A stretch of DNA of 64,000 nt from Vicinamibacterales bacterium (GTDB taxonomy: Bacteria > Acidobacteriota > Vicinamibacteria > Vicinamibacterales > 2-12-FULL-66-21), in NCBI GenBank assembly GCA_035699745.1, contig DASSPH010000069.1, positions 1-64,000 of the forward strand. Direction: 5' to 3'. The notes under the pieces are model-generated. The model saw nothing but the letters and a program-made list of their open reading frames with translations, searched no databases and had not been told where the DNA came from. Position numbers and translations under genes: made by a program. Positions 7,364 to 64,000 of this stretch are shown one piece after another; positions within the stretch are counted from its first letter, which is position 1; the number at the start of each line of letters is the position of its first letter.

Positions 7364-9256
7364 CTAGAACCGGATCAGGACGCCGCCGACCATCCGCTTC
7401 GGCGGCCGGACGACGAGCAGCTCGTCGTAGATCGATCCGGCGTCGTTCGGATCGCGGAACAGATTGCGAAGCCCCACGAGCACTTCCCAGCGCGCGGCGT
7501 TGCTGAACGGCATGAACGGCAGCGCCTGGTTGACCTGGACGTCGAACCGGTAGTCGAGGGACGGACGCGTCGGATCGTTGCCGCGCGCGAACGCGTTGTT
7601 CACCTTGTAGAGCACGAACACGCGCGTCGCGGTGTGCGGCAGCTCCGTTTCGAGCGACGTGGTCACGTCGTGGATGTCTTCCTGCCGCGGACGGATCGCG
7701 GCCGGCGCCCACATCGCGATCGCGGCCATGTCGCCGCGCGCGATCCACTGCGTCCGGGTGACGCTGTAATCGACCGAGCCGCGGATCTTCTGCGCCGGCG
7801 TGCTGCTCCAGCGTACGCCCCAGCCTTCCGCCTCGAGCCCCCCGGCGTTGGCGACGAAGTAGTGTCCGGGAGACTTCGGACCGCCGTTGATCGGCAGGCC
7901 GAAGAGCGTCGCGACCTGGCCGTTGACGCGCTGCTCGAAGCGGCGCACGCCGATGACGAACGCGCCGCTGAACTCGTGCGCGATGCCGACGTCGACGAAC
8001 CGCACGCGCTCGACGCGCAGGTCTTCTCCTTCGAGCGGCGCGAACGTGCGCTCGGGCGGCAGCCACGGCCCGACGGTGGCCGGCGCGAGGAACTCCTCGG
8101 CGCCCGGCGCGACCATCCGCTGACCGGCGGTCGCGGTCACGAACGTATGGCGGTACGGCGTGAGCGTCAGCCCCAGACGGGGGCTGAGCAGCGACCGCTG
8201 GCGGAGGTAGTCGTAGCGGGCGTAGCGCGCGCCGTATTCGAGGGCCAGCGTCGGCGACACCGTCCAGCGATCGCGCCCGTAGATCTCGCCGACGTTGCGC
8301 GACTCGTCGTTCACCGGGGCGGCCCCGGACAGCAGCGCCCGCCGCGGGTGGGTGTACTGCTGCGTGCTGTACGACACGCCGAACGCGGAATCGTGCGACG
8401 TGGCGATGCGCGACGAGAACGACCCCGCGACGATCCACGCCGAGACGTCCGACTGGCTCATCGACGCCCGCACGTCCCAGCGGCCCGCCGCGGCGGGCGC
8501 GCCGATCGACATGTAGGCGACCCCGCGCGGCACGAACTCGCTGAACAGCAGCGGACCCGGTCCGAACGCCGACGTGGTCAGGAAGTTGACTTCGCCGGAG
8601 AACGGGGTCGCGGTGAAGAACGTCGCGGCCATGGTCGCGGCGCTGTCGAGCGCGCGCCCGAAAATCGATCCGGCCGGATCGCCGTCGAACCCGCTGGTGC
8701 GTGCCGCGTCGGCGATCGAGACGACGCCGCTCTCCTGTTTCAACACGCTGCGCTTGATGTGGCGCAGCCGCCACGCCGTCTCGGAATGATTGTCGTCGTC
8801 GGGGACGGGATTCTCGCCGGACGGGACCGACATCCCCGCGGCGAGAATCGTCCGCGCCGCCAGCGGGGCGTCGTCCGCGCGGCGCATCTGGATCTTGTCC
8901 ACGTCTGCCGCGGCGGCGTTGACGCGGACGCGGTCGCGGCGCGTCGAGACGAACCCGGCGCGATGCACCCGCAGCTGATACTCGCCCGAGGGCAGCGGCT
9001 GGATGACGAAGCGGCCGCGCGCGTCGGTCGTCGCCATGAGGGTGGCGGCGCCCAGCGCCGAGACCATCGCGCCCGCCACCGGCCCGCCGCGGTCGTCGAT
9101 GACGGTCCCCTGAATGCTGCCGAGCATGAGCCGCGCCTGCTGCCCCTGGACGCTGGCACGCAGCGGGGTCGCGGGAATCCGTGACTGTGCGTGCGCCGGC
9201 CCCACCGTCGCCCCGACGATCGCCGCCGCCGCGAAAAGCCCGGTCAGGCGTGCCAT
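7364..9256 (-). CDS. TonB-dependent receptor-like outer-membrane protein with N-terminal regulatory domain
   Basis: A 630-residue exported protein: signal peptide ending PAHAQ (about 1-24), a carboxypeptidase-regulatory-like Ig domain (about 45-125: GSIQGTVIDDRGGPVAGAMV ... GEYQLRVHRAGF), then long amphipathic beta-rich sequence ending in GVLIRF with the terminal phenylalanine used by outer-membrane barrels. The plug is not obvious and the barrel is shorter than in the two 1,100-residue receptors at 52 and 62 kb, so it may be a smaller barrel or a non-transporting relative. An SD (gaggac) sits 5 bp before the ATG. It lies 11 bp downstream of the next exported gene, so the two are likely co-transcribed. 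Substrate unknown. Confidence 0.75.
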   Translation of the reverse strand: MARLTGLFAAAAIVGATVGPAHAQSRIPATPLRASVQGQQARLMLGSIQGTVIDDRGGPVAGAMVSALGAATLMATTDARGRFVIQPLPSGEYQLRVHRAGFVSTRRDRVRVNAAAADVDKIQMRRADDAPLAARTILAAGMSVPSGENPVPDDDNHSETAWRLRHIKRSVLKQESGVVSIADAARTSGFDGDPAGSIFGRALDSAATMAATFFTATPFSGEVNFLTTSAFGPGPLLFSEFVPRGVAYMSIGAPAAAGRWDVRASMSQSDVSAWIVAGSFSSRIATSHDSAFGVSYSTQQYTHPRRALLSGAAPVNDESRNVGEIYGRDRWTVSPTLALEYGARYARYDYLRQRSLLSPRLGLTLTPYRHTFVTATAGQRMVAPGAEEFLAPATVGPWLPPERTFAPLEGEDLRVERVRFVDVGIAHEFSGAFVIGVRRFEQRVNGQVATLFGLPINGGPKSPGHYFVANAGGLEAEGWGVRWSSTPAQKIRGSVDYSVTRTQWIARGDMAAIAMWAPAAIRPRQEDIHDVTTSLETELPHTATRVFVLYKVNNAFARGNDPTRPSLDYRFDVQVNQALPFMPFSNAARWEVLVGLRNLFRDPNDAGSIYDELLVVRPPKRMVGGVLIRF

Positions 9257-10496: not shown

Positions 10497-11135
10497 ATGC
10501 CGCGCCCGCCGCGCCTCGTGGACGTGAGCGTGCTGCTTGCGCCCGGCCTCGCCACCTACCCCGGCAATCCGGAGTTCGAGATCACGCCGGTGCACAAGAT
10601 TGCCGACGGCCACGGCTCGAACAACTCGCGTCTGGTCATGGGCACGCACACCGGCACCCATGTCGACGCGCCGCTGCACTTCTTCGACGGCCGCCCGGGC
10701 GTGGACGCCATGCCGCTCGAGCTGCTCGTGGGGCGCGCGCGCGTCATCGATCTGCCGCACCGCGGGGGCATCACCGAAGCGCATCTCGCCGAAGCGGGCC
10801 TCCGCGAGGACATCCGCGTGCTGCTGCGCACGCCGAACTCCGCGCTCTGGAACACGACCGACGGCTTTCACACCGACTACACGTATCTGACCGAAGGCGG
10901 CGCGAAGTTCCTCGTCGGCCAGGGGGTGAAGGTCGTCGGTGTCGACTACCTCTCGGTCGAGCAGTTCAAGAAGGCGGGAGCGCCCGCCCACAAGGCGCTG
11001 CTCGGCAACGACGTCGTCATCATCGAAGGGCTGAACCTGTCCGAGGCCGAGGCGGGGCAGTACGAGATGTACTGCCTGCCGCTGCGCATCGCGAACGGCG
11101 ACGGCGCCCCCGCCCGGGTCGTCCTCAAACGATGA
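10497..11135 (+). CDS. cyclase family protein (kynurenine formamidase-like)
   Basis: A 212-residue metal-dependent hydrolase of the cyclase/KynB fold. The signature HTGTHVDAPLHFFDG near residue 57 supplies the His and Asp ligands of the catalytic zinc or manganese centre, and the N-terminus LVDVSVLLAPGLATYPGNPE matches the family start. Members hydrolyse N-formylkynurenine, isatin and other amides; no tryptophan-degradation genes are adjacent, so the substrate is open. The stop overlaps the glgC start by 4 bp (ATGA), implying an operon with carbon-storage and glycolytic genes. The start is fixed by the conserved N-terminus and by a -10 box just upstream. Confidence 0.85.
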   Translation: MPRPPRLVDVSVLLAPGLATYPGNPEFEITPVHKIADGHGSNNSRLVMGTHTGTHVDAPLHFFDGRPGVDAMPLELLVGRARVIDLPHRGGITEAHLAEAGLREDIRVLLRTPNSALWNTTDGFHTDYTYLTEGGAKFLVGQGVKVVGVDYLSVEQFKKAGAPAHKALLGNDVVIIEGLNLSEAEAGQYEMYCLPLRIANGDGAPARVVLKR

Positions 11136-52124: not shown

Positions 52125-52433
52125 AGGTTCTTCCGCCGAATCCTGCTGTTCTTGAACGCCGCCCGGCCGCCGTGGTCCCGAATGCCGAGGTGGCGCGACC
52201 TGCTGCAAGCAGGCGGATCATGCGCCGATATTACCCGTAAGCGGCCACGAGGAACCATCCGGCACCATACGCATGAGCTTAAGTGACTGAAACGAAAAGG
52301 TTTAGTTGCCCATAAGTTCTGCTTCCATTTGCGTCCCACTCGGCGTATACCTTTCCGTTACATCCGGCCGCACGCCGGTCCCGGTTCGGCGTCGAGTTGC
52401 GGCATCTGGCAGGCATAAGTGGGAGGAGGAACA
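52125..52433. other. 309-bp intergenic region upstream of the TonB-dependent receptor
   Basis: No gene seen. It holds a small hairpin, CCTGCT-gca-AGCAGG, at about 52200-52214, an AT-richer stretch around 52280-52360 that should contain the receptor promoter (no convincing -35/-10 pair), and at its end a strong SD (gggaggagga, 52421-52430) before the GTG at 52434. An 11-bp string GGCATAAGTGG is shared with the region upstream of pcnB (about 50689) and is probably chance. Confidence 0.5.
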
Positions 52434-55400
52434 GTGATCCACGTTTCTCGGACGTCGGCGCAACGCTGGTGTGCCAGCGGGCTGCTGATCGGAGCGCTAC
52501 TGCTGCTCACGTCGTCGGCGACGATCGCGCAGGTGCTGTACGGCAGCATCGTGGGAGTCGTGAAGGATCCGCAGGGCGGCAACGTGCCCGGCGCGACGGT
52601 CACGATCGTCAACAAAGACACCAACCTCACCAGGGAAGCCACGACGGACGCGGAAGGAGGCTACACGTTCAACAACGTGCAGGCGGGCCGCTACGACGTG
52701 AAGGTGACGCTGCAGGGGTTCCGCGAGAATGTCCGCACGGGCGTCCCGGTCAGCATCGGCGAGATCTCCCGCGTGGACCTGACGCTCGAAGTCGGCACGG
52801 TCAGTGAGACCGTGACGGTCGCCTCGGAGGCGCAGCTCCTCCAGACCGACAAGGCCGACGTCAGCACCGAACTCAAGTCGCAGGAACTGACCTCGATGCC
52901 GCTGAACCGGTTCCGCAACTACCAGGCGCTCATCAACCTGGTGCCGGGGACGACGCCGATGGCGTTCGGCAACGCGGAGACCGACACGCCCGCCCGTTCG
53001 CTGGCCACCAACGTCAACGGCCAGGTCAACACCAACAACTCGACCCGGACCGACGGCGCCACGAACATGAACATCTGGCTGCCGAACCACAACATGTACA
53101 TCTCGCCGGCCGAGACGATCGACACGGTCAACATCTCGACCAGCAGCTTCGACGCCGAGCAGGGGATGGCCGGCGGCGCGGCGGTGACGGTGGTGACGAA
53201 GTCCGGGACGAACAAATTCAAGGGGTCGGCCTTCGAGTTCTACAACAGCGACAAGCTGAACGCGACGCCGCGGTTCTTCGGGTCGGGCGCAACCCCACCC
53301 AAGCTGCCGGTGAAGGCGAACACGTATGGCGGCACGATCGGCGGTCCGGTTCGTCGCAATGCGGTGTTCTTCTTCGGGTCGTTCGAAGGCTACAAGCGCG
53401 AGCAGAGCCTGTTTACGTTCTTCACGGTCCCGAATGAAGCGCTGCGCCGTGGCGACTTCAGCGGCGCCGTGAACACGAACGGCTCCATCCAGAACATTTA
53501 CGATCCGTCGACCGGCAACACCGACGGCACCAACCGGACGCAGTTCGCCAACAACGTCATTCCGACGAACCGCATCGACCCGATCGCTCTCAAGGTGCTG
53601 CAGTTGTTCCCGCTGCCGACCCAGCCCGGCATCGGCGCCGGCGGCCTGACCAACAACTATCGCCGCCAGGAAGATCGCACGGTCGATCGCGACAATTTCG
53701 ACCTGAAGCTGAACTGGAACCGGACGGCGGCGAACCAGTTGTGGGGCAAGGTCAGCTACATGAACGCGGTCGTCGACGACCTCACCAACTACCTCGGTCC
53801 GGACCCGAACGCGGAAGGTGATGGCGGCTTCACGAAGGTCTACCAGATCACCGGCGGTCAGACCTGGACGATGACCCCGACGCTGCTGATGGACATGACG
53901 TTCGGGTTCTCGCGCCAGAAGCAGGATGTCTACGGGCCCGACTTCAATGCCGGCAACTTCGGTCTCGACGTGCTCGGCATTCCCGGCACCAACGATCAGG
54001 GCATCGGCGACCAGCGCTATGCGGGCTACCCGCAGTTCGATACCGGGTTCAGTGCGGTCGGCAATCGCGACGGCTGGAACCCCATCTTCCGCGACGAGCG
54101 GACCTACTCGTTGGCCACGAACGTGTCGAAGATCAAGGGACGCCACGACGTTCGCGGCGGCTACTTCGTCAACTTCATGTATCTCGATCACTGGCAGCCG
54201 GAAACCGGCAATCCGCGCGGCCGTTTCGAGTTCAGAGGCAACGTGACGGCGCTCAACGCGTCGGGGGCGCAGTCATCGAACTTCTACAACCAGTACGCGT
54301 CGTTCCTGCTCGGACTCGTCGGCACCGCGTCGAAGAGCGTGCAGAACGAACTGATGACCGCTCGCGAATGGCAGCACGCACTGTTCATCCGCGACCGCTG
54401 GAACGTCAGCTCCAGGCTGACGCTCGACCTCGGCCTGCGCTGGGAGTTCTACCCGATCATGACGCGCGCCGATGGCCGCGGCATCGACCGGCTGGATCTC
54501 GACAACCCCGACTTCGCCCGTCGTCTCGATGTGCTCGTCGCCGGTCGCGGCGGGAACCCGCAGAGCAGCGGGATGGAGGCCAGCTTCGACAACTTCGCGC
54601 CGCGCGTCGGCGGCATCTACCGTCTGAACGACAAAACGGTGCTCCGCGCCGGCTACGGCCTGACCTTCAACGCGACCCCGTGGGCGCGCGCGCTGCGTGG
54701 CGACAACGACTACCCCGTCACCATCGCGTCGAGCAGCTCAAATCCGGGGCAGTGGCTGCCGTATGGCACGTTCGCGCAGGGCATCCCGATCCTGCGGGGC
54801 CCGGACGTCAGCTCGGGCCGGGTGCTGCTCGATCGCACGGCCGCGGTCTACACGCCGGAAGTGGGCAACGTCGATCGCGGCGAGGTCCACACCTGGAACG
54901 TCGCGTTCGAGCGTCGTCTTCCGCTCGACGTCTCGGTGGACGTCGCCTACGTCGGCGCCAAGGGCATCGGCGGCTACGCCGCGGTCGACGTCAACGCGCC
55001 GCAGACGCTCGGCGTCGGTGACGCCGGCCGTCCCTACGCGTCGCTCGGTCGCATCCTGGCCATCAACTCCTGGGGTCAGCGCCTGAAGACCGACTACGAC
55101 TCGCTGCAGATCGCTCTGAACAAGCCCTTCACGAGAGGGCTGCTCTTCAAGGGAGCCTACACCCTCAGCAAGTCGATGAACGAGAGCGACAACGACGGGC
55201 GGGCGACTCTGAGCTATAACACGCCGAGCGAGTTGCACCGCAACTGGGCACCGGCCGGATTCGACCGGCGGCACAACTTCCAGTTGGGTTTCGCCTACCA
55301 GCTGCCGTGGCAGAGCCAGGGCTCGCTGGGCTCGAGCCCGGTTGGCTGGGTGATCAACGACTGGCAGATCAACGGCGTTTTCGCGGCATTCAGCGGTACG

Positions 55401-55805
55401 CCGTTCACCGTGACCGCGAGCGGCACCAGCCTGAACACTCCGAACAACCTGCAGACCGCCGATCAGGCCAAGGAGTTCACGGTGCTGGGCGACATCGGCG
55501 CCTCGGGTCCCTGGTTCGATCGGACGTCGTTCACGCAACCGACGGGGGTGCGCTTCGGCAACACCGGCCGGAACCAGTTCTACGGACCCGGCGCCTATAA
55601 CCTGGACTTCTCGGTGTTCCGCATGTTCCCGGTGGGTGGCGCCAAGCGTCTCGAGTTCCGTGTCGAAGCCGGGAACGTGCTCAACCACGCGGTCTATGGC
55701 AACCCGCAGGGCAGCATTACCTCCGGAACGTACGGCCAGATCACGGGCATCAACGGGAACTACCCGGAGCGCATGGTGCGTCTCGGGCTGCGGTTCACGT
55801 TCTAA
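52434..55805 (+). CDS. Oar-like TonB-dependent receptor with N-terminal carboxypeptidase-regulatory domain
   Basis: A 1,123-residue outer-membrane receptor. Signal peptide to SSATIAQ, a CarboxypepD_reg domain (about 38-120: GSIVGVVKDPQGGNVPGATV), a plug (about 125-250) with VTVVTKSGTNKFKGSAFEF, and a large barrel ending RMVRLGLRFTF with the terminal Phe. This is the Oar/SusC-like type abundant in Acidobacteriota, taking up glycans, peptides or siderophores by TonB force. Start is the GTG 4 bp after the SD gggaggagga; an upstream GTG at 52419 precedes that SD. A near paralogue lies at 61774. Followed by a heptamer array, a clear terminator, and the TPR-CRTAC1 pair. Confidence 0.93.
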   Translation: MIHVSRTSAQRWCASGLLIGALLLLTSSATIAQVLYGSIVGVVKDPQGGNVPGATVTIVNKDTNLTREATTDAEGGYTFNNVQAGRYDVKVTLQGFRENVRTGVPVSIGEISRVDLTLEVGTVSETVTVASEAQLLQTDKADVSTELKSQELTSMPLNRFRNYQALINLVPGTTPMAFGNAETDTPARSLATNVNGQVNTNNSTRTDGATNMNIWLPNHNMYISPAETIDTVNISTSSFDAEQGMAGGAAVTVVTKSGTNKFKGSAFEFYNSDKLNATPRFFGSGATPPKLPVKANTYGGTIGGPVRRNAVFFFGSFEGYKREQSLFTFFTVPNEALRRGDFSGAVNTNGSIQNIYDPSTGNTDGTNRTQFANNVIPTNRIDPIALKVLQLFPLPTQPGIGAGGLTNNYRRQEDRTVDRDNFDLKLNWNRTAANQLWGKVSYMNAVVDDLTNYLGPDPNAEGDGGFTKVYQITGGQTWTMTPTLLMDMTFGFSRQKQDVYGPDFNAGNFGLDVLGIPGTNDQGIGDQRYAGYPQFDTGFSAVGNRDGWNPIFRDERTYSLATNVSKIKGRHDVRGGYFVNFMYLDHWQPETGNPRGRFEFRGNVTALNASGAQSSNFYNQYASFLLGLVGTASKSVQNELMTAREWQHALFIRDRWNVSSRLTLDLGLRWEFYPIMTRADGRGIDRLDLDNPDFARRLDVLVAGRGGNPQSSGMEASFDNFAPRVGGIYRLNDKTVLRAGYGLTFNATPWARALRGDNDYPVTIASSSSNPGQWLPYGTFAQGIPILRGPDVSSGRVLLDRTAAVYTPEVGNVDRGEVHTWNVAFERRLPLDVSVDVAYVGAKGIGGYAAVDVNAPQTLGVGDAGRPYASLGRILAINSWGQRLKTDYDSLQIALNKPFTRGLLFKGAYTLSKSMNESDNDGRATLSYNTPSELHRNWAPAGFDRRHNFQLGFAYQLPWQSQGSLGSSPVGWVINDWQINGVFAAFSGTPFTVTASGTSLNTPNNLQTADQAKEFTVLGDIGASGPWFDRTSFTQPTGVRFGNTGRNQFYGPGAYNLDFSVFRMFPVGGAKRLEFRVEAGNVLNHAVYGNPQGSITSGTYGQITGINGNYPERMVRLGLRFTF

Positions 55806-59042: not shown

Positions 59043-60308
59043 TCACCACACGTGTGTGGCGAGCACCGTCGGGGCGCCGGAATCCTCGCCGACGACCGCG
59101 GCCTTGACGACGATCTGCGCGTTGCGCTGACCCCAGACGGAAGCCGGCGGCTCCGCGCCGGCAAGGCAGGTCTCGTCCAGCACGCATTCGGCGGCGGCAC
59201 GGGTACCGAGCAGCAGTCCGGAGAGAATCATCACCCAGCCGCCGGTCGCGGGATCTTTCATACGCGTGATCAGACCGTAGGTCTCGGAGAGATCCTTCAA
59301 CCGCGTCGTCCGTCGGCCGGTCCGCCACTGCCGGCTGTCGGGGCGTGTGCGATCGAGGATGTAGTTGCCGTCCTCGTCCCCGGCCAGGGTGAATCTGAGC
59401 CCCTCGCTGAGTCTCAACGTCCACGGGTTGTTGAAACCGCCGATCAAGATGACGGGCCCCTCGCGCAGATCCTTGAGATCGGTCGATGCCGGGCGGCGAA
59501 TGCGAAAAGGCTTGGACTTCGCGCGCAGCTCTCCGGCGATCAACGCCAGGGTCACCGAATCGGTGAAGCGTACTGAGTTGGTTTGCAGGAAATCCTGGAG
59601 CGTCAGGTCTCCCGCGGGCGTCTCTCCGGGCGTACCCGAGAGTTGCTGTCCGTTCGAATACGGATCGCCGATGCACAGCAGGACCGCACCCGATTCGCCG
59701 AGGATCGGCTGCCAGAATCTGACGAGCGCGTTCTCCGCCGCGATGTTGCTGCGCGGCCACATCGCCAGTGCCGCAAACGCGCCGGCGGCCACGAGCGCTG
59801 TGGCAATCCAGAGGATTGATGTGGTGCGCCCCGGCGGCACGGGCGCGCCCGTGGCTCCGGCGCCCACGCTTCCGCCGGCGAGGGATCGTGACGGTGGAGC
59901 GAATTCCGGGACGTACGATCCGGGCTGATAGCTGATGACCACTTCGCCGGCGCGATCGGCCTGGTAATACTGCACCAGGCGCTTTCGAACTTCCGCGGCC
60001 GCCATTCGCACGATGGGGTCCTGCGACGTGTCGTATCCAGGCTCCCGGCCGAAGGCCTCGTGTCCGATCGTCCGCTCCTTCAGGGTTTCGCTGGACGAGA
60101 GCGCGTGCTCGACCGTGAATCGAAGAAAGGCGGGGAACCTCCGGCTGTTACTGAACAGCGGCGAGCCGAGGATGCGGGTCAGCTGGCCGCGTACCAGGGC
60201 CTTCTCCTCCGCTGACGAGGGCCTCCAGGTGTGCAGTGACTCGGATTCCTGGTCGGCGCTCAACGGCTGGGGCATCTGCAGGTTAGACGACGGCCGGCTG
60301 CTCACCAT
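59043..60308 (-). CDS. membrane-anchored regulator with acidobacterial N-terminal domain
   Basis: A 421-residue protein. Its N-terminal domain (about 25-125: LTRILGSPLFSNSRRFPAFL, RTIGHEAFGREPGYDTSQDP, VRMAAAEVRKRLVQYYQADR) is the predicted DNA-binding module that precedes TPR or cyclase domains in many Acidobacteriota and Planctomycetota proteins. One TM follows (about 155-178, LWIATALVAAGAFAALAMWP), then a periplasmic domain of unknown fold (about 190-421). A ToxR-like layout, DNA-binding inside and sensing outside, is suggested. Start at ATG 60308 leaves an inverted repeat in the gap to the next gene; ATG 60344 or 60272 are alternatives. Divergent from the TnpB-like gene. Confidence 0.7.
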   Translation of the reverse strand: MVSSRPSSNLQMPQPLSADQESESLHTWRPSSAEEKALVRGQLTRILGSPLFSNSRRFPAFLRFTVEHALSSSETLKERTIGHEAFGREPGYDTSQDPIVRMAAAEVRKRLVQYYQADRAGEVVISYQPGSYVPEFAPPSRSLAGGSVGAGATGAPVPPGRTTSILWIATALVAAGAFAALAMWPRSNIAAENALVRFWQPILGESGAVLLCIGDPYSNGQQLSGTPGETPAGDLTLQDFLQTNSVRFTDSVTLALIAGELRAKSKPFRIRRPASTDLKDLREGPVILIGGFNNPWTLRLSEGLRFTLAGDEDGNYILDRTRPDSRQWRTGRRTTRLKDLSETYGLITRMKDPATGGWVMILSGLLLGTRAAAECVLDETCLAGAEPPASVWGQRNAQIVVKAAVVGEDSGAPTVLATHVW

Positions 60309-60314
60309 TACGTC

Positions 60315-60363
60315 TCGATACGGAAATTTACGGCGTGCGAACACCGCGACGCTGCCGTATCGA
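60315..60363. promoter_or_regulatory. 9-bp inverted repeat in the divergent promoter region
   Basis: TCGATACGG (60315-60323) and CCGTATCGA (60355-60363) are perfect inverted copies with 40-bp centre-to-centre spacing (about four helical turns). They lie between the divergent regulator (ATG 60308) and the TnpB-like gene (ATG 60410), an expected place for a looped or dimeric operator. Confidence 0.45.
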
Positions 60364-60409: not shown

Positions 60410-61582
60410 ATGTTCCCTGAAATGCAGATTATCAGATGTGCCGGGTGCGGTCTGGAGCGCGCGATGCCGCCGTCGAAGGCGGGCGCGCCGCGGACGCCGC
60501 GCGACTGGAAGGTGCTGAACGGACGGGCCTTCTGCCCGTCGTGCAAACATGACGCCTATTCGCTGCGCGCGGTGATTCTTCCGGTGTCTCGACCCGACGG
60601 GAGGTCGTGGGACGACTTGCGCGCCGAGCTGCGGACGTTGTGGGGCGAGACGACCCGGTGCGCCAACTGGCTGATGTCAGAGTTCTACGCGCGCGACCTG
60701 CGAAGGGGCGCGTTGGACGAGACGCTCGGCCCGATGCCCCAGATCTATCTGTATCCGGAGGCGCGGCTTCTGTTTCCCGGGCTGCCGCCGCAGTCGCTCT
60801 CGGCCCTCATTCAGACGGTCCGCAAGAAGTATCGAGCCCAGCGCCACGCCGTCCTCTGGACGCGCGCCGCGTCATTGGCGTCCTATCGCTTTCCCGCTCC
60901 GCTGATGCTGCCTCCGCAGGCGTGGTCCCTGTGCGAACACGAGGGGAGCTGGACCGTGGACGTGCGCCTCCGCGACGCGCGCTGGACGCTGAAACTCCGC
61001 GGCGGAGCGCCGATGCGCCGCCAGACAGAACGGTTGAGGCAGATCGTCCGCGGCGAGGCGAGCCGCGGATCGCTTACCATCTATCACTCGACGGGCGGCT
61101 CGGCTCCGCAGGTCATGATAAAAATCGCGGTGTGGCTGCCGAAGCCGCCGGCCGTGAGCCACGGCACCGTCGCCGTGGTCAGGACCGACGAGCGAGCGCT
61201 GCTCACGACCGAACCCATGTGGAGGATCGATCCGGGACCAGTCAGAAACGTTCTCGCGGCAGATGCCCGCCGCCGCACCGCGCTGCTCACCAATCTGCAG
61301 GCTGCCCGCCGATCGCACTCGCAGACAGACGGCATCGAGCGTGCGCTCGCCGAATTGGCCGGGCGGACGCGGCGGCGGCTTGCGGAAGCGTGCCGCATGT
61401 ATGCGGCACAGCTGGCGACGCACGTCGCCGGACGCGGCGCGCGGGCGGTCGAATACGACGACAGCGTCCGCCCCGCGCTCGATCACTTTCCGTGGTCCCA
61501 GCTGCGGACGCGGATTGGCGAACAGCTCGAAAAGCGTGGCATTCGGCTGGTGGCCACCGCCGGAGGAGAGAACGCCGCATAA
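60410..61582 (+). CDS. putative TnpB/Cas12-like protein with degraded RuvC site
   Basis: A 390-residue protein that I read as a distant, altered TnpB/Cas12 relative. N-terminal CxxC-x28-CxxC (Cys10/13 and 42/45) is a zinc ribbon; then WED/REC-like ILPVSRPDGRSWDDLRAELR with TTRCANWLMSEFYARD; SYRFPAPLMLPPQAWSL and RWTLKLRGG; a pre-RuvC strand VMIKIAVWLPKP; GTVAVVRTDERALLTT where VGIDLG is expected (no Asp, Val256/Val257 instead); a long helix (LAELAGRTRRRLAEACRMYA); AVEYDDSV with Glu348 as possible RuvC-II Glu; and FPWSQLRTRIGEQLEKRGI, matching the FPxxQLxxxIEYKAxExGI that follows RuvC-II. It stops there, without the C-terminal zinc ribbon and RuvC-III Asp. No nuclease activity expected. ATG 60410 chosen. 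Confidence 0.5.
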   Translation: MFPEMQIIRCAGCGLERAMPPSKAGAPRTPRDWKVLNGRAFCPSCKHDAYSLRAVILPVSRPDGRSWDDLRAELRTLWGETTRCANWLMSEFYARDLRRGALDETLGPMPQIYLYPEARLLFPGLPPQSLSALIQTVRKKYRAQRHAVLWTRAASLASYRFPAPLMLPPQAWSLCEHEGSWTVDVRLRDARWTLKLRGGAPMRRQTERLRQIVRGEASRGSLTIYHSTGGSAPQVMIKIAVWLPKPPAVSHGTVAVVRTDERALLTTEPMWRIDPGPVRNVLAADARRRTALLTNLQAARRSHSQTDGIERALAELAGRTRRRLAEACRMYAAQLATHVAGRGARAVEYDDSVRPALDHFPWSQLRTRIGEQLEKRGIRLVATAGGENAA

Positions 61583-61773
61583 GCTTTCAGCCGCCGCCAG
61601 GCTGGACGGCGGGGACGGCTCGACACGCTGGCCGGTCGAGACCCCTCGCCAGACGCGGAGAAGAGTCGGGGATATTCGCAGTGCCCTGCGCCGCCCCCGA
61701 AGTACCGATGCATCACCGGTACTGCGGGTGGTTCGGCAGCCAGGCTGCCTAGTGAACGGGGAGGGGAGGCGTC
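61583..61773 (+). ncRNA. structured intergenic RNA region (leader or guide-type RNA candidate)
   Basis: The 191 bp between the TnpB-like stop and the next start contain four stems: CCGCCG/CGGCGG (61591-61612); GG-CTCGAC/GTCGAG-a-CC (61617-61643); CCCG-a-AGTACCG/CGGTACT-g-CGGG, 11 bp with one mismatch (61696-61728); and GGCAG/CTGCC (61735-61749). None is followed by a U-tract. It ends in a strong SD (ggggaggggagg) for the receptor. It could be a cis leader of the receptor or an RNA used by the TnpB-like protein, whose relatives take their RNA from the 3' end of the gene and just downstream. Confidence 0.4.
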
Positions 61774-64000
61774 ATGAGGAAGCTCTTTTTAGGCGTCGTG
61801 ATCGCACTGCTGGTCGCAGGCGGTCTCGCGAATGGGCAAGTTCTGTATGGAAGCATCGTCGGAACGATCTCGGATCCGCAGGGGTCGTTCGTACCAGGGG
61901 TCACCGTCGTCGCGACGAACACCGGCACGGGCGCGAAGTCGGAGGCGGTGACCGATGAAACCGGCTCGTACACGCTGCGCAATCTGCTGCCGGGCGTGTA
62001 CGACCTCACGGCCTCGCTCTCCGGTTTCCGCGAACACAAGGAGACCGGGGTCAACGTGACGGCGGGCAATCCGGTCCGGGTGAACGTCAAGCTCGTGATC
62101 GGCGCGCTCAGCGAAGTGGTGCAGGTCAAGAGCGAGCAGCTGCTGTTGCAGACCGACAAGGCGGATCTGCACACGGAACTGGGGCCGCAGGAGATCGTCA
62201 ACCTGCCGCTCAACACGTATCGCAACTATCAGGCGCTGATGAACCTCGTGCCGGGCGCGACGCCGGTGCAGGAGCAGAACGCGACCATCGATACCCCGGG
62301 CAAGTCGCTGCGGACGTGGGTCAACGGCACGCAGCCGAACTCCAACGCCACGCGCATCGACGGTGCGGTGTCGGTCAACATCTGGCTGCCCCACCACGTC
62401 GGCTACATCCAGCCGGCCGAGACGATCGAGTCGGTGAACGTGTCGACCAACTCCTTCGACGCGGAGTACGGGATGGCCGCGGGCGCGGCGTCCACGGTCA
62501 TCACCAAGTCGGGCACCAACAAGCTCAGGGGATCGGCGTTCCTCTTCCGCAACCAGGAGGAATTCAACGCCAACTCCTTCAACAACAACGCGTTCAACCT
62601 GCCGAAGGATCCGCTGTCGCGCAACACCTACGGCGGCACGCTCGGCGGCCCGGTCATGAAGGACCGCCTGTTCTACTTCGGCTCGGTGGAGCGCTACGCG
62701 GAACGCCGGCAGCTGCGGCAGAACCTCACGGTGCCGACGGCGAAGATGCGGCAGGGGGATTTCACCGAAGTCGCCGCGGCGTATCCGACCTTCCGGCTCT
62801 ACAACCCGTTCACCGGCGGCGCCGGCGGCACGGGGCGCTCGGAATTCCCCAACTTCACCATTCCGTCGAACCTGATCGATCCGATTGCGCGCCAGATCCT
62901 GTCCTACTACCCGGCGCCGGATCCGTCGCGCGACCTCAACTCGAACCAGATCTTCGACGACTTCACCCGGCAGGTGCCCTTCCGCATCGACCGCGACAAC
63001 TACGATGTCAAGCTCACCTTCCAGCGGAACACCGGTCACGCGCTGTGGGGCAAGTTCTCGCTGCTCGACGCGGCGGTGAACGACAACTTCATCCTCGGAT
63101 TCGACAAGGGCAGTCTCGGCGACACCAAGGTCTACGTCGCGACCGCCGGTCACACGTGGACGCTCAGCCCGACGCTGCTGCTCGACGGCAACTTCGGCGC
63201 GAACATCCAGAACCAGACCGTCACCGGGCCGGACTACGGCACCAACTACGGCCTGGATCTCGGCATCCGGGGCGTCAACCAGACGAACGACATCCGCGCC
63301 AGCGGACTGCCGACGTTCGAGAACGGCTACACGATCGGCAGCACCCCCAACTGGATGCCGCTGTTCCGCAAGGAGCGGAGCTTCACGTTCAGCTCGGCGG
63401 TCACCAAGGTGCTCCCCAAGCACGATGTCCGCGTCGGCGTGGACGTCGTTCACCACCGGCTGAACCATCGCCAGGCCGAGTTCGGCACCTACGGACTGAA
63501 GGGAGGCTTCGGCTTCAGCAACCTGACCACCGGCATCCCGGGCTACACGTCGCCCGGCTGGAACAACTTCGCCGGCTTCCTCCTCGGCCTGCCCTCGTCG
63601 TACTCGAAGGACGTGCAGCCGGAGGAGATGACGGGGCGCGAGTGGCAGACCGCGATGTACCTCCAGGATCGCTGGACGGTGAACAGCAAGATGACGGTCG
63701 CGGCGGGTCTGCGCGTCGAGCACTATCCGCTGATGCGCCGCGCCAACCGCGGCATCGAGCGCCTGGACTACGACACGTTCACGATGCTGCTCGGCGGCCT
63801 GGGCGACGTGCCCGACGACGTCGGGATCAATCTGAAGACGTGGTATCTCGCGCCGCGCGTCGGCACGATGTACCGCCTGTCGGAGAACCAGGTGCTGCGC
63901 GCCGGCTACGGCCGGACGATCAATCCGCTGCCCTGGTCGCGTCCGATGCGCGGCTCGTTCCCCTTCGACATCGCCCAGAACGCGTCCGCCGAGCAGTTCG
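61774..64000 (+). CDS. Oar-like TonB-dependent receptor, 3' end outside window
   Basis: The first 742 residues of an outer-membrane receptor, open at the window end. Signal peptide to ANGQ, CarboxypepD_reg domain (about 25-110: GSIVGTISDPQGSFVPGVTV), plug (about 115-245: STVITKSGTNKLRGSAFLFR), and the first two thirds of the barrel. It is a clear paralogue of the receptor at 52434 (shared QVLYGSIVG, LQTDKAD, NLPLNTYRNYQAL-type strings) but not identical. Strong SD and a 191-bp structured leader precede the ATG. Its neighbour upstream is the TnpB-like gene, which makes it a candidate regulatory target. Confidence 0.93.
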   Translation, partial: MRKLFLGVVIALLVAGGLANGQVLYGSIVGTISDPQGSFVPGVTVVATNTGTGAKSEAVTDETGSYTLRNLLPGVYDLTASLSGFREHKETGVNVTAGNPVRVNVKLVIGALSEVVQVKSEQLLLQTDKADLHTELGPQEIVNLPLNTYRNYQALMNLVPGATPVQEQNATIDTPGKSLRTWVNGTQPNSNATRIDGAVSVNIWLPHHVGYIQPAETIESVNVSTNSFDAEYGMAAGAASTVITKSGTNKLRGSAFLFRNQEEFNANSFNNNAFNLPKDPLSRNTYGGTLGGPVMKDRLFYFGSVERYAERRQLRQNLTVPTAKMRQGDFTEVAAAYPTFRLYNPFTGGAGGTGRSEFPNFTIPSNLIDPIARQILSYYPAPDPSRDLNSNQIFDDFTRQVPFRIDRDNYDVKLTFQRNTGHALWGKFSLLDAAVNDNFILGFDKGSLGDTKVYVATAGHTWTLSPTLLLDGNFGANIQNQTVTGPDYGTNYGLDLGIRGVNQTNDIRASGLPTFENGYTIGSTPNWMPLFRKERSFTFSSAVTKVLPKHDVRVGVDVVHHRLNHRQAEFGTYGLKGGFGFSNLTTGIPGYTSPGWNNFAGFLLGLPSSYSKDVQPEEMTGREWQTAMYLQDRWTVNSKMTVAAGLRVEHYPLMRRANRGIERLDYDTFTMLLGGLGDVPDDVGINLKTWYLAPRVGTMYRLSENQVLRAGYGRTINPLPWSRPMRGSFPFDIAQNASAEQF

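Follow-up and report, generated by a model that had tools for sequence, protein, structure and literature searches.

The 64,000-nucleotide (nt) stretch of DNA analysed here (the window), positions 1 to 64,000 of contig DASSPH010000069.1 from a Vicinamibacterales bacterium, carries the gene of a 390-residue protein which, by its predicted fold and by sequence profile, belongs to the Cas12f lineage. The gene probably specifies a chromosomal, nuclease-dead Cas12f-like protein that lacks an array of clustered regularly interspaced short palindromic repeats (CRISPR) and takes up a guide RNA whose sequence lies directly 3' of the gene itself (Table 1). As the best reading, the system would be a non-cutting, RNA-guided DNA binder, kin of a phage-borne dead type V-F system. 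Its family comprises eleven distinct loci, with 26-40% identity to the window protein.

A structure model of the protein, made from a 12-row alignment, has a mean predicted local distance difference test (pLDDT) score of 88, and the solved structures that fit it best are all Cas12f, with AsCas12f at the top (Foldseek E 4.8e-17, VIA Z 23.3 over 307 residues). OsCas12f (Z 19.4) and dCas12f (9n9m, 18.8) score lower, and TnpB, Cas12k and Cas12m reach about 13 (Cas12m about 12.7). Compared with the PDB by sequence only, the family profile retrieves Cas12f chains at 5.6e-8 to 6e-6 (OsCas12f 5.6e-8, SpCas12f1 3.6e-7, AsCas12f 3e-6) but not the dCas12f sequences 9n9c and 9n9m. The PADLOC Cas12f model matches nine of 12 family members (best 1.9e-13); the window protein by itself matches it weakly (0.07), and in single-sequence searches of Pfam, NCBIfam, PHROGs and phage and plasmid records it gave no significant match. 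The initial annotation of this DNA had read TnpB/Cas12 superfamily homology by eye, and the Cas12f fold match together with the family profile bears this out.

That annotation had also noted the loss of the RuvC-I aspartate and an end before RuvC-III, and both observations stand. At the expected strand the window protein reads TVAVVRTDER, and no acidic residue is conserved there across the family (VVRT, IVRT, FVKT, LLRR etc.), the RuvC-II position equivalent to AsCas12f E324, a catalytic residue, being D, E or N. The protein stops soon past RGIRLVA, without RuvC-III and without a C-terminal zinc ribbon, and other complete members terminate at about the same point. The family thus has neither the intact RuvC triad (D...E...D) nor the C-terminal, target-binding zinc ribbon of Cas12f. 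Because the truncation is shared and no RuvC-I acid is conserved, the loss of cleavage would be a trait of the entire lineage. Since AsCas12f residues 1-367 match residues 51-387 of the model, residues 1-49 form an extra N-terminal zinc ribbon. A CxxC pair had earlier been described as moved to the N-terminus; an N-terminal zinc ribbon does exist, but the model places it as a separate domain ahead of the Cas12f fold.

Homologues were sought in 100 related genomes, in a sample of the phylum and by profile-based scans of IMG/VR. Among the related genomes a full-length homologue was found in one only, G070 (39% identity, same order), the phylum sample yielded a genome with two copies of the gene (G414), and the IMG/VR scans added seven distinct systems in virus records; L027 and L028 are duplicates, and L022 is not counted apart from contig G414:C112. 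Nine of the eleven loci lie in IMG/VR records or on two contigs binned with G414, and phage portal and terminase genes are among the neighbours checked (L021, L088). In the family tree, which is unrooted and small, the window and G070 members, both chromosomal and array-less, form one clade (support 97/99), separate from all array-bearing members. Judged by sequence, the window system is of common ancestry with the array-bearing dead Cas12f systems in virus records, and the chromosomal clade has likely lost the array. The gene cas1 (PF01867) was not found in the source genome (G000), G070, G414 or 8 virus records, some of them fragments. A match in Bacteroidaceae (L002) was rejected as an unrelated protein, and weak phylum matches (L005-L012, L014), short or interrupted stretches, were put aside as chance without closer study.

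The structured intergenic RNA that the initial annotation had placed behind the gene turns out to be the guide RNA. A covariance model (R2), built from six array-bearing systems with both chromosomal members left out, finds it at 65.7 bits (E 8.4e-17); the G070 counterpart is found at 2.1e-12, and the next match lies at 0.06. In eight aligned scaffolds, 25 of 34 pairs are changed on both sides, and scaffold covariation is 0.519, versus 0.212 after shuffling and at most 0.138 in slid controls. Over nine systems, each anti-repeat fits its own repeat better than a swapped one (59 contiguous pairs versus a mean of 40.6), and none of 20,000 shuffles reached as high. The source genome and G070 have one scaffold locus each, beside the gene, the remaining matches there being marginal, and no Rfam family matches the scaffold. 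No CRISPR array is found in the window, where the repeat-like element is single copy at up to 3 mismatches; in G070 the gene is likewise followed by the scaffold and one repeat-like hairpin, without an array. The RNA starting at 61585 is therefore a natural single-guide RNA, known here from its sequence. Aligned by homology to the borders between repeat and spacer in the arrays, the guide has its first base at 61729.

In the relatives, an array follows the gene in eight of the nine non-chromosomal loci (2 to about 15 repeats of 36 nt, spaced about 72 nt apart), and the ninth, L020, ends 327 nt past the gene. A scaffold of about 110 nt lies between gene and array and mostly runs straight into the first repeat; in L029 it sits one gene further on, and in L030 the scaffold is matched weakly and stands apart from the array. 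Several spacers look aimed at phage genes, although their short translations are leads. In L029, two spacers with an identical start point encode N[ED]xTRGVSKADR, and IMG/VR records contain ENVWTRGVSKADR in what I take for a RuvC-like resolvase; spacer L025_12 resembles a ParB-like motif, spacer L030_13 a HELGH peptidase motif. The reverse complement of spacer L029_5 (L029 3178-3213) encodes GCPQCLSDRYV, similar to the N-terminal zinc ribbon of the dead Cas12f family itself, and a rival phage's dead Cas12f gene is a possible target. No convincing self-targeting was seen among the spacer matches listed, against the sequences fetched. The phage versions probably silence competing phages, and the spacer readings agree with published phage CRISPR arrays directed against other phages, and with the phage 'dCas14' that is reported to lack a catalytic residue (PMC7162821).

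Some of these loci have peculiarities of their own. The G458 virus record (L023 1080-1797, L053 19441-19615) has the gene surrounded by four scaffold-like RNA units, of which a single one is fused to a two-repeat array. The array of contig G414:C112 (L063 14315-14783), a contig whose ends appear to overlap, holds seven strongly diverged repeats with the palindromic core kept, and these repeats seem to drift while the pairing stays. In L025 (5028-5135) two adjacent spacers are near-copies that differ by one substitution and a 1-nt indel, as if drawn from two variants of one target.

For the window guide, which starts TGGTTCGGCAGCCAGG..., the own genome holds no second full match. One of the best matches elsewhere in the 6.3-Mb genome is a site in a second oar gene, 8.7 kb upstream, for an oar-type TonB-dependent receptor like the one that follows the guide; the equivalent site in the adjacent oar gene, 62382-62396 on the minus strand, has 2 mismatches, at guide positions 5-6. 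The empirical chance that a random 15-mer of the window matches some oar gene is about 1.5%. The G070 guide comes closest to two oar genes, each matched exactly over 14 nt, and has near matches in the TQQWN-coding motif of several more; here the scaled chance of an oar match for a 14-mer is roughly 4-13%, and across 15 selected oar genes the signal from the shared TQQWN-coding motif is weak (P about 0.04). Recognition by the guide of a motif common to most oar genes was tested and dropped for the window, where one oar gene fits. When 16 nt of the guide are matched with up to 2 mismatches, 18 matches are found (the guide itself included) versus 15 for a reversed control, which is chance level. 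A link of the guide with oar is suggestive, and regulation of oar by the system is a hypothesis drawn from these short guide matches.

If the system works as proposed, its guide RNA would be transcribed and processed, and the protein-RNA complex would locate complementary DNA beside a short flanking motif, unwind it and hold it uncut, so that transcription is blocked, as with TldR and Cas12m. The chromosomal clade has probably been co-opted for a fixed target, and the most plausible one at hand is the upstream oar gene. The adjacent oar would then be spared and its paralogue repressed, a receptor-isoform switch that I put forward tentatively, as possible. It would account for the exact match from guide position 1 in the paralogue, for the mismatches in the adjacent gene and for the oar matches of the G070 guide, and TldR-flagellin prophages are a published parallel (PMC13418256). 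However, oar genes are numerous in both genomes, which makes chance matches easier, the matched strand differs (antisense in the window genome, sense in G070), the window site lies in coding sequence and not in a promoter, as do the sites in G070, and no oar gene adjoins the G070 gene. A longer scenario starts from phage-borne, truncated and nuclease-free Cas12f with arrays, used in competition between phages, even against a rival's dead Cas12f; in the chromosomal clade the array would have been lost and its first repeat and spacer fixed as a single guide that silences a paralogous outer-membrane receptor gene. In its full length, this scenario is unlikely. Several observations weigh against reading the locus as a co-opted, non-cutting regulator. 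Apart from the guide itself, guide matches in the own genome do not exceed 15 nt, and the candidate oar targets share no flanking motif. The loss of the nuclease is deduced from sequence and model. Conservation is thin, with two chromosomal members among 193 genomes of the class, and the G070 scaffold has genes for a PadR-like regulator and a permease behind it (assigned by eye). In addition, neither the first 21 nt of the window guide nor the G070 guide has an exact match in IMG/VR.

For the window guide, the latter result also counts against a defence remnant, in which the single guide would be the last spacer of a shrunken phage-type array, directed against a phage or mobile element and not against a host gene. 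Such a remnant would fit the setting of the array-bearing relatives, which sit in virus records or on phage-like contigs and whose spacers seem directed against other phages, and also the lack of a long match of the window guide in its own genome; however, two distant chromosomal members of one clade with the same single-guide layout favour a stable role, and I consider the remnant rather doubtful. An RNA-guided activator comparable to the dCas12f-sigma factor systems, with oar operons as its targets, is very unlikely: a dead Cas12f fold does adjoin an outer-membrane receptor gene, and dCas12f structures are good fold matches, but no recognisable sigma factor gene is adjacent, and the family profile leads to other Cas12f chains. 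Still harder to credit is the decay of a Cas12f or TnpB gene into a non-functional relic. Rarity, the lost catalytic region and the absence of close homologues would fit decay, whereas the 390-codon frame is intact, the truncation is common to all family members, those with arrays of diverse spacers among them, and the window keeps both the RNA helices and the anti-repeat pairing.

The neighbours of the gene, as assigned by Pfam, are TPR, FG-GAP/UnbV_ASPIC, a 433-residue protein and oar, and an alternative GTG start of the dead Cas12f-like gene is possible upstream, at 60335. As the initial annotation had stated, the gene lies directly upstream of oar and on the same strand; the predicted guide starts 45 nt ahead of the oar gene, and no terminator was found between the two, nor any promoter-like site on the plus strand. 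The Pfam scan revealed no recognisable extracytoplasmic function (ECF) sigma factor gene among the neighbours. The divergent 433-residue neighbour (59043-60344, minus strand) has no Pfam match; by eye, its N-terminal half resembles a winged-helix regulator. The oar genes at 52419-55805 and 61774-64000 are two of about 60 in the source genome (80 matches); the count for G070 is at least 61 (61 scored among 205 candidates). Conserved synteny with TonB receptors, which had been suspected, did not hold up once homologues were gathered: PadR-type and permease genes follow in G070, the other members lie in virus records or on small contigs, and no conserved downstream neighbour was found across the family loci. 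In G070 (L016), the regions upstream of the dead Cas12f gene (9040-9090) and of the PadR-type gene (10560-10600) are similar (TTGACrTAGCTAG...GGTATG), suggesting a common control of these two genes.

Table 1. Positions of the gene, guide RNA, candidate target and adjacent receptor gene in the window, and domains of the 390-residue protein (aa, amino acid residues)
Feature	Position	Strand	Remarks
Dead Cas12f-like gene	60410..61582	+	390 codons; ATG 60410, TAA 61580-61582; reading frame intact
N-terminal zinc ribbon	aa 10-45		CxxC pairs at residues 10-13 and 42-45
WED/REC-like half	aa 50-245		
Truncated RuvC-like half	aa 254-382		
Guide-RNA scaffold (trans-activating CRISPR RNA-like, tracr-like) fused to one repeat-like hairpin	61585..61728	+	Covariance model R2
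Scaffold 5' stem-loop	61586..61606	+	Relatives keep the stem despite different sequences
Scaffold second, two-part helix	61608..61650	+	Conserved CACGCTkGCCGG core; fold and covariation
Anti-repeat TCGGGG	61666..61671	+	Can pair with the 5' end of the repeat-like element
Single repeat-like element CCCCCGAAGTACCGATGCATCACCGGTACTGCGGG	61694..61728	+	Aligns to the 36-nt CRISPR repeats of relatives; ends in CTGCGGG, as in several of them
Predicted guide TGGTTCGGCAGCCAGGCTGC	61729..61748	+	Length inferred; start from homology with array repeat/spacer borders
Candidate target in second oar gene (52419-55805)	53075..53089	-	15 nt exact from guide position 1, mismatch at 16
oar-type TonB-dependent receptor gene	61774..64000, continues past window end	+	Pfam OMP_b-brl_4 3.5e-107, CarboxypepD_reg

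Each element of the system has a precedent, namely dead Cas12f, phage arrays and TldR, and no published description of the lineage was found in the open literature searched, which covers the relevant papers only in part. The family joins two topics that are usually studied apart, CRISPR arrays that phages carry together with dead effectors, and TldR-type host regulators. As an array form and a fixed-guide form occur within one protein family and with one RNA scaffold, the step from array to single guide becomes directly comparable. With 390 residues and a natural one-piece guide, the window system is also a very small candidate for a gene-silencing tool. If silencing of a receptor by the co-opted clade were true, a CRISPR system would have become a transcription factor of the host, selecting the receptor isoform.

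Among known systems, Cas12f (AsCas12f, OsCas12f, SpCas12f1) shares with the family the fold over residues 51-387 and the profile similarity, and the relatives have its scaffold, anti-repeat and 36-nt repeats. In contrast to Cas12f, the family has the extra zinc ribbon and lacks RuvC-III, the C-terminal ribbon and a conserved RuvC-I acid, and the window has one fused guide in place of an array. Huge phages encode 'dCas14', a type V-F relative without one catalytic residue that was suggested to be a repressor, and phage arrays mostly come without cas1 (Al-Shayeb et al. 2020, PMC7162821). Compared by description, 'dCas14' is likewise phage-borne and damaged in its active site, but there a single catalytic residue is missing, whereas here the RuvC-III region is missing throughout the lineage. 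The initial annotation had pointed to dead TnpB relatives (TldRs) and dead Cas12f proteins as known RNA-guided transcription regulators. A probable non-cutting, RNA-guided regulator is what the evidence supports, and the dead RuvC, the adjacent guide RNA, the array-less window and the surface-protein gene next door are all shared with TldR; the protein is nearer to Cas12f than to TnpB, however, its guide RNA is built from scaffold, anti-repeat and repeat, its relatives have CRISPR arrays, and a conserved partner gene is absent. In TldR-flagellin prophages, guides down to 6 nt still reduce motility (PMC13418256). Cas12m (type V-M), a type V effector with an inactivated RuvC like the family studied here, silences without cutting and occurs with arrays on mobile elements (review PMC11656645). 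It is a longer protein, and its structural match to the family is clearly weaker (Z about 12.7 versus 23 for Cas12f). The protein dCas12f (9n9c, 9n9m) is likewise dead and of the Cas12f type, has a guide RNA and matches the fold of the model well; its partner is a sigma factor, of which the window gene has none adjacent, and a sequence-profile match is lacking. Inactivation of dCas12f and of this family likely took place separately.
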